64,000 bases of DNA, taken from the NCBI RefSeq assembly GCF_005893125.1, contig NZ_VCJS01000041.1:1-64000 (forward strand), given 5' to 3'. The notes below the pieces were generated by a model that saw nothing but the letters and a program-made list of their open reading frames with translations, was not told where the DNA came from and made no database searches. The translations under genes were made by a program, and so were the position numbers. Source of the DNA: Nonomuraea basaltis (GTDB taxonomy: Bacteria > Actinomycetota > Actinomycetes > Streptosporangiales > Streptosporangiaceae). Of the stretch, positions 54,529-61,063 are shown one piece after another (the stretch's first letter is position 1; each line of letters opens with the position of its first letter).

Positions 54529-55245
54529 ATGGAATCCACCGCGATGATCACCCCCGGTCTCGCCCGTGACCTCGCCACCTTGGGAAGGCTGGGCGAGGAC
54601 ACGTCGATGGAGAGCGTGCTGCGCGGGCTGACGACCGCGCTGGCCGCGGGCGTGCCCGGCTGTTCCGGCTCCTCCGCCGAGCACTGGCGCGACCACCGCG
54701 TCCTGGTCTCCGGCTCGCACAGCGAGCTCATCATGCTCGTCGAGGGCGAGCGCGAGCTCGGCGAGGGCCCGTCCATCGAGGCCAGGAAGAGCGGCGCCCG
54801 CGCCTCCGTGTCGGACGTGCTGAGCGACACCCGCTGGCCCCGCTACGACGCGCTGGCCACGCGCTGGGGCGTGCGCTCGGCGCTCATCGTCCCCATCGAC
54901 GCGTCGCCCGCGCAACTCGTCGTCGGCCTCTACTCCGTACGCCCCGGCGCGTTCTCCCCGCAGGGCGCCCACTCGCTCGCCGACATGCTCACCGAGCAGC
55001 TCGGCGTGGCCATGGCGAACCTGTGGGACTTCGAGGAGGTGCGCACCGACGCCGCCCAGCTCCAGGAGGCGCTCGCCGGCCGCTCCGTGATCGACCAGGC
55101 CAAGGGCATCATCATGCAGACCAGCGGATGCACCGCCGAGGCCGCCTTCGAGGAGCTGCGCAGGATCTCGCAGCACCACCAGGTCAAGGTGGCCGACCTT
55201 GCCAGGCTCCTGGTCGACGAGCACCAGCGCAAGTCGCGGCACTGA
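54529..55245 (+). CDS. GAF-ANTAR transcription antiterminator-type regulator
   Basis: 238 residues. GAF domain (about 20-165: SSAEHWRDHRVLVSGSHSEL, WGVRSALIVPIDASPAQLVV) and C-terminal ANTAR three-helix bundle (about 180-232: LQEALAGRSVIDQAKGIIM, CTAEAAFEELRRISQHHQVK). ANTAR domains bind paired RNA hairpins and prevent transcription termination when the sensor is active. The GAF ligand is unknown. It is divergent from the SpoIIE-like protein, which also has a GAF domain. Confidence 0.93.
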   Translation: MESTAMITPGLARDLATLGRLGEDTSMESVLRGLTTALAAGVPGCSGSSAEHWRDHRVLVSGSHSELIMLVEGERELGEGPSIEARKSGARASVSDVLSDTRWPRYDALATRWGVRSALIVPIDASPAQLVVGLYSVRPGAFSPQGAHSLADMLTEQLGVAMANLWDFEEVRTDAAQLQEALAGRSVIDQAKGIIMQTSGCTAEAAFEELRRISQHHQVKVADLARLLVDEHQRKSRH

Positions 55246-58857: not shown

Positions 58858-59283
58858 TCAGCGGGTTTCGAGCCCCTTCCGGGCGGCGCCGAGCACGGCT
58901 GCGACATGTGAGCCCGATGGGGGAGCGGGGACCTCGCTGAACCCCTCGTCGGCGTCGTACCGGACGTCCAGTCCCGCGTCGACGAGCCGCTGCGCCCACC
59001 GCAGCGCCGTGTTCAACCGCTCGGCCGCCGGCGGCTTCCCCTGCGCGGCCGCCGACAGGTTGCGCAGATTGGTCGCGGGCCCGGACTGGGCGTGCGCGCG
59101 GGCCAGCTTCCACGGCACGGCGCCGCTGTGGTCCAGCATCGGCTTGGCCAGCCCGGCGGCCCGCTTGGCCTGCAGCACCCCGGACTCGCTGACCCCGAAA
59201 TGAGCGGCCAGCTCCTGCACGCTCATCCCCTGGGCGACCAGCCTGGCCAGTTGTTCGCGATCGATGGTCGGCTTGCGACCCAC
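58858..59283 (-). CDS. helix-turn-helix protein
   Basis: 141 residues from GTG 59283. The N-terminal 45 residues form a resolvase/Hin-like HTH (LARLVAQGMSVQELAAHFGV, SESGVLQAKRAAG). The rest is helical (LRNLSAAAQGKPPAAERLNT, ALRWAQRLVDAGLDVRYDAD) with no recognisable domain. Probably a DNA-binding regulator. It is not clearly linked to neighbouring genes. Confidence 0.7.
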   Translation of the reverse strand: MGRKPTIDREQLARLVAQGMSVQELAAHFGVSESGVLQAKRAAGLAKPMLDHSGAVPWKLARAHAQSGPATNLRNLSAAAQGKPPAAERLNTALRWAQRLVDAGLDVRYDADEGFSEVPAPPSGSHVAAVLGAARKGLETR

Positions 59284-59339
59284 CTGCCTGCCTCCGCTCC
59301 GGTTTCCGGTGCGCGTCTACCTCGGATATGCGCTAAGGC

Positions 59340-59570
59340 TATGACGATCTGATCCGGGTCCTGTGCAAGGACGCATACGCGCGCGGCATCAACCTCGGCC
59401 CGTTTCCCGACGCGATCGAGGAGGCGAACAGCTAGAAGGTCTGGGACGACGGCGAGATCCACCGCGACGAGGCCCAGCAAGGTGATCAAGCCGCCTTCTT
59501 GAGGAGCATCGTAGTGCCGGCCGAGCGCAGCGCAGAGGCCCCGACCGGAATCAGAGCCTCTGCCGACTAG
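59340..59570 (+). pseudogene. degenerate coding relic with in-frame stop
   Basis: Continuous in one frame, YDDLIRVLCKDAYARGINLG, PFPDAIEEANS, stop TAG at 59433, then KVWDDGEIHRDEAQQGDQAA and on to TAG 59570. No start codon with ribosome site precedes it. The composition looks protein-like on both sides of the stop. I do not recognise the family. It is most likely a decayed gene fragment. Confidence 0.35.
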
Positions 59571-59572
59571 CG

Positions 59573-60814
59573 CTATTCGATCAGACTTCTGGCGGAGCCC
59601 ACGCAGTACCGTCGGTACTTGCGCAACGAGATGCGCAGTCTTCCCTCGACTGCAGCTATCGGGATCAGGTAGATCGCGAGGTCCCCGTCAAGGATGAAGA
59701 ACTGATCGACATCGGAGGCCCTGTAGGGGACCAGTGCACCTTTGGTGGTTCCGGCCAGACGGTAGGCGATCGTCACGTCGCCCGAGCCGGCCATGCACGT
59801 CTTGACTTGTACACGGTGTACGGGGCCTCTCATATCGACGAGCAGATCGTATGGCCGGGTGTCTAACGGGATGGATGGAGCGAAGCCACGGAGCGTGAAC
59901 CAGGAGGCGGCGATGGTGAGTGCAGCTTCGCGAAGATGTTGGAGATGGGCGGGCTCCGGCCGTGGTGCTTCCTCCATGGGGTCCAGGTGATCGGTCGTGA
60001 TCCCGAGCTTGTCCGCGTGGCGGCGAATCGTCGTGCGGTTCTGGCTGATGTTGGCCACGCCGAGAGATTTGGTCACCGCATCCCAGGTGCCGGAGTGCTC
60101 GATGGCTTGGTCGAGTTGCCTCCGGGGCCAGCGTCTGGTTCCAGTGAAGTGGCTTACGTCCAGCCTGAGTTCCTCGACACGCTGCTTGAGGATGCGAAGC
60201 TGCCGTCCACCGGTCGCTGCAAGACCAAGGTCACGTGCCACACCACGCCACGAGGTGGCGGACGCCACTGCCGTGACGAGTTCGTCGTCGGTCCAGGTCT
60301 TGTGGAAGTGGGCCGTGGACAAGCCTAGGTCCTGCGCCCTTGCGCGTGCCTGGGCGATGACCTTCTCCGAGCGGCGGCTGTACCCGAGATGGTCGAGGAC
60401 TCCGACCCAGGACGCCGAGATGCTGATGATTTCGGCAAACCTCTCATCGGATGCGATGGCCAGTCGAGGCCGCCGGCTGCGGCCTGCTTCAGGCTTGTCG
60501 CAATCTGGACGCGGTTCGGTCACCAGTTCTTCCTGGGGCGCGCTGATCGACGCTGAGATGCTCCGCGGGGGAGCGGTCACGAGGGCGCAAGATTTGCGCG
60601 GACGACCGGGCTGTGCCTTGAAGTGGGTAGTGTCGATCTTCAGGTCAGCGGCGCGGGCTTGCATGATCTGCCGAGATGCCGTTGCCGTCGGGTGATATCC
60701 GAGAGACCGAGCCACACCCGCCCAACTGGCGGACTGGGCGATGGCGTTCCGCAGATCTTGATCCGTCCAACGGATTGCGTCTTTACGGGTGTGCTTGGAT
60801 GTGAGAGTTGGCAC
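59573..60814 (-). CDS. repeat-HTH PD-(D/E)XK endonuclease-like protein beside tRNA-Pro
   Basis: 413 residues from GTG 60814. Four degenerate repeats of about 50 residues each hold an HTH-like unit: TDQDLRNAIAQSASWAGVAR, ERFAEIISISASWVGVLDHL, TDDELVTAVASATSWRGVAR and RRQLDQAIEHSGTWDAVTKS, each ending near HF or HL. The C-terminal domain (about 285-413) has AALTIAASWFTLRGFAPSIP, then D323 in PYDLLVDMRG and Q336-V-K338 in HRVQVKTC, the D...(E/Q)xK core seen in the I-Ssp6803I-type PD-(D/E)XK family. It looks like a DNA endonuclease with its own recognition array. GC content is lower than in the rest of the window. Confidence 0.7.
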   Translation of the reverse strand: MPTLTSKHTRKDAIRWTDQDLRNAIAQSASWAGVARSLGYHPTATASRQIMQARAADLKIDTTHFKAQPGRPRKSCALVTAPPRSISASISAPQEELVTEPRPDCDKPEAGRSRRPRLAIASDERFAEIISISASWVGVLDHLGYSRRSEKVIAQARARAQDLGLSTAHFHKTWTDDELVTAVASATSWRGVARDLGLAATGGRQLRILKQRVEELRLDVSHFTGTRRWPRRQLDQAIEHSGTWDAVTKSLGVANISQNRTTIRRHADKLGITTDHLDPMEEAPRPEPAHLQHLREAALTIAASWFTLRGFAPSIPLDTRPYDLLVDMRGPVHRVQVKTCMAGSGDVTIAYRLAGTTKGALVPYRASDVDQFFILDGDLAIYLIPIAAVEGRLRISLRKYRRYCVGSARSLIE

Positions 60815-60821
60815 TGTCGCA

Positions 60822-60861
60822 GAATAATAAAAACCCGATCATCCAGTCTTGATGATCGGGT
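60822..60861 (-). terminator. terminator of tRNA-Pro
   Basis: On the minus strand an 11-bp stem (ACCCGATCATC / GATGATCGGGT, 60833-60861) with a 7-base loop is followed by TTTTTATTATT, a classic intrinsic terminator about 16 bases after the tRNA. Confidence 0.9.
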
Positions 60862-60876
60862 GTTATATCCAAAATG

Positions 60877-60950
60877 TCGGGACGACAGGATTTGAACCTG
60901 CGACCCCCTGACCCCCAGTCAGGTGCGCTACCAAGCTGCGCTACGTCCCG
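60877..60950 (-). tRNA. tRNA-Pro (anticodon GGG)
   Basis: 74 bases. Acceptor stem CGGGACG/CGTCCCG, anticodon stem CCTGA/TCAGG around loop CTGGGGG giving anticodon GGG, and T-arm loop GTTCAAATC. CCA is not encoded (the discriminator A is followed by CAT). It reads proline codons CCC/CCU. Confidence 0.97.
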
Positions 60951-61022
60951 TCAAGCCCTGCGACGGAACTCTTTGGTCTTTGTTCCGCTCGGCCTTGCGT
61001 GGAAAACACTATCACGTGCGAC

Positions 61023-61063
61023 GGACCCCTCCGTGCCAACTCTCACGAAGGCTGGAGGGGTCC
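61023..61063. repeat. 10-bp inverted repeat, possible terminator
   Basis: GGACCCCTCC (61023-61032) and GGAGGGGTCC (61054-61063) pair perfectly around a 21-base loop that contains one arm of the 14-bp repeat. It could terminate leftward transcription entering the tRNA region. Confidence 0.55.

Follow-up and report, generated by a model that had tools for sequence, protein, structure and literature searches.

The window, as we call the whole stretch of 64,000 nucleotides analysed here, contains a nuclease gene (59573..60814, minus strand) that lies next to a gene for tRNA-Pro(GGG), which raises the question of why these two genes stand side by side and what such a nuclease may cut.

A nuclease with an array of HTH repeats

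The open reading frame starts with GTG and runs for 413 codons without interruption. In an AlphaFold2 model of the protein (21-sequence alignment, mean pLDDT 80.4, pTM 0.40), four three-helix units precede an alpha/beta domain at residues 288-412. The units cover residues 18-57 (60644..60763), 123-162 (60329..60448), 176-215 (60170..60289) and 231-269 (60008..60124), and the domain, with D323 and Q336-x-K338, corresponds to 59579..59953, all on the minus strand. PHROG 10822, a family annotated as HNH endonuclease, matched four stretches of the protein (1.4e-33 overall), the best of which is in the repeat part (residues 172-227, at the third unit; profile positions 6-60 of 245). No HNH domain was detected by Pfam, and the best match to PHROG 10822 covers the repeats. 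Concerning the catalytic part, a profile check set beforehand gave a match of PDDEXK_5 (PF11645) to residues 302-390 (1.5e-8, 35.2 bits against a curated cut-off of 26.1), and D323, Q336 and K338 are invariant in all 21 aligned nuclease sequences. The closest solved structure is the homing endonuclease I-Ssp6803I (PDB 2ost), found at 0.41 with the single sequence and at 0.0011 with a profile; Foldseek matched the model to 2ost at 4.4e-5, and VIA-align, mainly over residues 286-412, gave Z 12.9 and an rmsd of 3.4 over 120 aligned residues, the next entry reaching 10.2. Pfam, PHROGs, fold and conservation thus support what an earlier note had read from the letters, namely four HTH-like repeats, a nuclease core around D323 and the QxK motif at 336-338, and a site-specific endonuclease with a modular binding array. 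Neither outcome that the note had named as refuting it, absence of any nuclease profile match and D...QxK residues lost in homologues, was observed.

The window protein has no match in NCBIfam, no PADLOC-DB 2.0.0 family matches it at E 1, and the HTH units gave no strong Foldseek match. The same note had remarked on the gene's lower GC; its GC content is 63.0% against 70.5% for the window, and only 5 of 314 sliding windows are equally GC-poor, the gene's own included. Values of dN/dS lie between 0.11 and 0.22 in 27 of 28 pairs (the remaining pair is saturated) and are rough because synonymous sites are far diverged; judged from these comparisons, the nuclease is under purifying selection.

The linked tRNA-Pro(GGG) and its anticodon stem

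The note had also placed the gene beside a tRNA-Pro, and indeed tRNA-Pro(GGG) (60876..60950, minus strand) lies 61 bp upstream of the start codon. Between the two there is a terminator-like hairpin (60833..60861, minus strand), at whose far edge homology with the nuclease-free relatives G730 and G739 ends, and the 5' flank of the tRNA (60951..61063, minus strand) is conserved with the carrier congener G723 (81%). We collected relatives from 150 family, 396 phylum and 297 order genomes, from 148 genomes of the Mycobacterium-containing genus g71, and from genome_contigs (16 loci) and viral_contigs (1 locus). Duplicate removal gave 29 loci, each with a protein or a clear piece of the PD-(D/E)XK (PD) nuclease; left out were the relics in G614, G673 and G028 (all beside tRNA-Pro(GGG)), L040, which is a second piece of G014, and G224. 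We found that 28 of the 29 adjoin tRNA-Pro(GGG), 27 of them with the nuclease immediately 3' on the same strand. The exceptions are G001, where the nuclease is 5' of tRNA-Pro(GGG) and divergent, and where an assembly break sits at the locus, because the contig overlaps another by exactly 127 bases, and G145, which shows no tRNA and whose contig ends 48 bases upstream of the reading frame. Named carriers include Promicromonospora, Krasilnikoviella, Ornithinimicrobium, Nocardioides, Arthrobacter and Mycobacterium, and one carrier (G185) lies outside the class. Single-protein scans of genome_contigs, viral_contigs and plasmids gave no close relatives of the window protein. Among phages, seven from Klebsiella match the window protein in the nuclease domain alone, and an uncultured phage matches it in the repeats alone; the one Klebsiella phage context that was examined lists no tRNA. 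Two side observations concern gene architecture: the PDDEXK_5 protein of G224 (L035) lacks repeats and is encoded right next to a tRNA-Tyr/Thr/Met cluster, and tandem or fused nucleases occur at L028 (G145) and L027 (G136), as a 596-aa protein with two repeat+PD units and as two adjacent genes.

In all 28 PD loci with a visible tRNA, the anticodon stem flanking the loop CTGGGGG differs from CTTGA/TCAAG; the recoded stems are CCTGA/TCAGG (the window and others), CTTCA/TGAAG, CTACA/TGTAG or another. We compared carriers and non-carriers within the window's family and genus g71. The 30 family genomes without nuclease have TCAAG in 24 cases, TCAGG in four, TCGAG in one and TGTTG in one, as typed by a pattern that holds the 3' half of the stem only (the full tRNA was seen in 25 of the 30 fetched loci). 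None of the nine typed family carriers has TCAAG, nor any of eleven when G827 and G732 are counted. Nuclease traces are absent from all 30 non-carrier loci, including G009, G730, G739 and G760, which have the window's stem and make up four of the six non-carriers without TCAAG. The g71 pattern matched 142 of the 148 genomes; in the 95 listed, from which our counts come, TCAAG is present in 84 of 89 non-carriers, and all six carriers among the matches listed (four intact, two decayed) are recoded. Fisher tests of recoding against nuclease presence, with relatedness ignored, give 5e-7 for g71 and 2e-5 for the family, values that are not independent tests because carriers are related. Adding four further g71 genomes, namely G614 (a relic only, with the native stem), G628 and G565 (recoded, without the gene) and G583 (native), brings the g71 value to 1e-5, again with relatedness ignored. 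Seven g71 genomes without nuclease have a recoded allele; G673 alone has a relic, of 34 codons, and for the other six nuclease loss is assumed, because no relic is present there. The g71 tRNA pattern was also used to fetch 28 loci; none has a trace of the nuclease, and those with a readable tRNA are native.

The recoding is narrow. Among g71 tRNAs, anticodon-stem pairs and base 44 are the only positions that consistently separate recoded from native, while one D-loop base varies inside both groups; the window tRNA is identical to that of its native congeners at 73 of 75 bases, the difference being one compensated base pair. As duplex DNA, the anticodon arm of the native gene is an inverted repeat, CTTGA-CTGGGGG-TCAAG. 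The window's genome also contains attachment-site-like 3' pieces of tRNA-Pro (G000:C159:8120, C281:80494 and C149:9253; L064, L066, L067), two of which start exactly at the anticodon loop and have the native TCAAG stem half; no integrase was found among the reading frames checked beside the first two (C159:8120, C281:80494). Since native 3' halves starting at the loop persist in a carrier, any target must include sequence 5' of the loop, or the enzyme is inactive. Their persistence suggests that the 5' half of the stem would be needed.

Apparent replacement, probable mobility and decay

At the window's locus the native tRNA gene appears to have been replaced, not mutated, as judged from colinearity with relatives. 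An HTH-domain gene (58858..59283, minus strand), which lies outside the unit and is present in carriers and non-carriers, serves as locus marker; it adjoins tRNA-Pro(GGG) in many family genomes. Four congeners with the native tRNA (G141, G100, G003 and G069) align colinearly with the window as far as 59346, that is, 63 bp past the start codon of the marker, and their native tRNA starts about 30 nt beyond the colinear stretch. In the window this 63-bp flank (59284..59346, plus strand), a putative promoter region and probable fossil of the lost native gene, is kept and the native tRNA is missing; there follow 226 bp up to the nuclease stop codon (59347..59572) that match none of the four congeners, then, on the opposite strand, the nuclease, the hairpin and the recoded tRNA. 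In all 12 native-allele family loci that show the marker, the tRNA is oriented away from it. Six of the nine recoded-allele loci with the marker are flipped, namely the window, G723, G732 and the nuclease-free G730, G739 and G009, and three (G827, G133 and G760) are unflipped. G730 and G739 keep the hairpin and the recoded tRNA and have no nuclease, an arrangement as expected if the nuclease had been lost. No full tRNA-Pro(GGG) other than the recoded one was found in the window's genome, whose assembly, in 670 contigs and with 8% contamination, could lack a native copy.

Concerning mobility, the units of Nocardioides and M. kyorinense align at 78.8% from the first tRNA base to +828, and a conserved stretch of the same locus, found on opposite sides of the unit in the two, is 69.4% identical. 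In the protein tree, the Nocardioides sequence clusters with seven others, all from Mycobacterium or g71 (support 85/92 for this group of eight, whose inner order the tree does not settle), and transfer of the unit between genera is likely on this evidence. The PD nuclease is sporadic in g71 (7 of 148 genomes, relics included), and in syntenic loci without it the missing segment is the nuclease gene with no other recognised gene. Frameshifted or fragmentary copies are common: the nuclease of G555 is split into two frames, G585 and G614 have relics, the latter a nuclease fragment only next to a native stem, and the stem beside the relic of G673 is recoded. The nuclease-free g71 sites of G628, G510 and G565 were considered as virgin empty sites and set aside, since their recoded tRNA makes nuclease loss as likely.

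These data bear on the two kinds of gene that the earlier note had proposed. That of an island-borne defence nuclease finds no support, given that PADLOC gave no match and that the segment missing in relatives is the nuclease gene alone. That of a free-standing homing endonuclease is favoured by the sporadic presence, the gene-free syntenic loci, the likely transfer and the decayed copies, with the amendment that the tRNA appears to be part of the unit. Moreover, the window nuclease lies 3' of the tRNA terminator and does not interrupt its presumed target, unlike a classical homing insertion, so that protection, if any, seems to come from recoding.

We consider it fairly probable that the recoded tRNA-Pro(GGG) and the homing-type PD-(D/E)XK endonuclease form a mobile two-gene unit aimed at the native tRNA gene, in which cleavage, immunity and homing are the parts that we infer. 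The HTH array and the nuclease domain would recognise the region around the anticodon stem-loop of the native tRNA-Pro(GGG) gene and cut this gene, the inverted repeat CTTGA-N7-TCAAG offering what could be a natural site for an oligomeric nuclease. The break would be repaired from a copy carrying the unit, or the native gene would be lost. The linked tRNA, having other stem pairs, would stay uncut and supply the tRNA function; it should still fold because the changed stem pairs are compensated. The unit would thereby spread and become hard to lose and, once the native gene is gone, the nuclease could decay while the recoded tRNA stays. That different lineages have recoded different stem pairs is what immunity would require.

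The alternative that survives best is a plain homing endonuclease, free-standing 3' of tRNA-Pro(GGG), with the tRNA changes reflecting hitch-hiking or lineage drift rather than immunity. A lone gene of such sporadic distribution, the syntenic sites without nuclease and the recoded alleles in some gene-free genomes would all fit, and hitch-hiking of the donor allele would also link allele to gene. We nevertheless regard it as unlikely, since carrier lineages change different stem pairs in a tRNA that otherwise hardly varies across the native g71 loci read, and since at the window's locus the native tRNA is missing and its flank remains, which insertion behind a native tRNA would not bring about. 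Alternatively, the protein might act on the tRNA-Pro(GGG) molecule as a tRNA-cutting toxin, with the linked recoded tRNA as its immune partner. Some PD-(D/E)XK toxins cut tRNA, and recoding at the anticodon arm with stem pairing kept would suit such a target; however, four HTH units together with a homing-endonuclease fold point to duplex DNA, and HNH nucleases use the same repeats, so that we find this explanation improbable, and more so than the preceding one. A last explanation, that the nuclease guards the tRNA gene by cutting invading elements with attachment sites that mimic the 3' half of the native tRNA, is highly improbable. Native-type tRNA-Pro(GGG) 3' halves do occur elsewhere in the window's genome, and more than one native-type match was seen in several other genomes; yet these fragments are still there in a genome that carries the nuclease, few genomes carry it, and PADLOC gave no match.

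HNH relatives and known tRNA-linked nucleases

The same repeats occur in a second set of nucleases. L044, an HNH protein by Pfam, matched 38 of 246 class genomes, in many cases over the HNH end only. The loci fetched for 30 of these 38 lie beside tRNA-Leu(UAG) in 27 cases (ARAGORN) and beside tRNA-Thr(UGU) in three, and a repeat-unit profile made from the PD proteins detected repeats in 26 of the 30, the four without being L171 and the three tRNA-Thr loci. In these last (L172, L173 and L174) the HNH gene is 3' of the tRNA, co-directional, and matches over the HNH end only, so that the repeats alone do not account for the linkage to tRNA genes. Eight further loci obtained with PD queries, all eight with repeats, adjoin tRNA-Leu (six UAG, one CAA and one UAA); here the nuclease gene is 3' and convergent in five and 5' and co-directional in three, while at the 27 HNH loci beside tRNA-Leu(UAG) it is 5' and co-directional in 26 and 3' and convergent in one. 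The placement of the gene thus differs among loci that have the same tRNA partner.

In 15 of the 27 cases the HNH-linked UAG tRNA is only 74-78 nt long, which leaves no room for the customary long variable arm. In 27 of 29 HNH carriers the linked UAG tRNA matched the search pattern, as the sole match in 23 and with one other match in four, and it may have replaced the standard tRNA-Leu(UAG). As a caution, the short form is also present in G069 and G141, two congeners of the window that are not known HNH carriers. As further observations, the HNH-linked UAG tRNAs at L146-L171 are very diverse, and the window's genome has an HNH relative with the same repeats beside tRNA-Leu(UAG) (G000:C603:14509-15474; L042, L145), whose gene contains one in-frame TGA and is perhaps decayed.

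Several known systems resemble parts of this picture. I-Ssp6803I reportedly is a PD-(D/E)XK homing endonuclease from the tRNA-fMet group I intron of Synechocystis, said to target the anticodon part of that tRNA gene. It shares its catalytic fold with the window nuclease, and its target, in another tRNA gene, would parallel the one proposed here, given that the anticodon stem is recoded in the carriers. It differs in being encoded in a group I intron, whereas the window nuclease is intron-free: Rfam detected no group I intron in eight loci, and a gathering search of the contig from window position 55000 on (L041) found tRNA only. The window protein differs further in its extra four-unit HTH array and in having as partner a tRNA-Pro(GGG) that is recoded instead of intron-split. 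Engineered cleave-and-rescue drives link a nuclease to a recoded, functional copy of its own target. The corresponding feature is present here, in that no full copy besides the linked recoded tRNA was found and the native one is absent at the locus; however, the unit is natural, bacterial and protein-guided, and cutting is presumed.

SegB of T-even phages is a GIY-YIG homing endonuclease. According to the available part of its description, it is free-standing and tRNA-linked and cuts inside tRNA genes (PMC13096335). It thus resembles the window's nuclease in being free-standing and linked to tRNA genes, and differs in its nuclease fold and in belonging to phage tRNA arrays of many isotypes, where that part of the source describes no recoded single-tRNA partner (PMC13096335). 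HNH endonuclease genes likewise adjoin tRNA genes in mycobacterial and phage tRNA arrays, as stated in the available parts of PMC5966550 and PMC6582537, the latter of which also mentions a tRNA-Leu(TAG) with a short variable loop in a mycobacterial tRNA cluster of presumed phage origin. Those arrays differ in being large and, in the same excerpts, thought to be horizontally acquired, and these mention neither a one-to-one pairing, nor recoding of an anticodon stem, nor a sole chromosomal tRNA being replaced (PMC5966550, PMC6582537). Free-standing homing endonucleases in general are treated in PMC3943268 and PMC3984707, of which parts were available. A search of open-licence PMC texts gave, among the matches listed, no report of a one-to-one tRNA-nuclease unit with a recoded tRNA, which is not proof of absence.

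Taken together with the HNH loci, the two-gene unit might belong to a class of natural cleave-and-rescue elements widespread in Actinobacteria, a broader proposal that we advance tentatively and that could well prove wrong. One HTH array, fused to a PD-(D/E)XK or an HNH domain, would be aimed at a chosen chromosomal tRNA gene (Pro-GGG, Leu-UAG) and be accompanied by a tRNA, recoded or phage-like, to which the decoding of that codon passes; part of the bacteria's genetic code would then hinge on a selfish element. Native and recoded alleles are one or two base pairs apart, which makes specificity directly testable, and the repeats, with their known tRNA partners, would yield a natural code for a modular DNA-binding array. 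If the reading as a two-gene unit is right, bacterial chromosomes would harbour a natural gene-drive-like element that cuts an important single-copy tRNA gene and supplies a recoded one, and the odd tRNA alleles and replaced tRNA genes of Actinobacteria would be explained.
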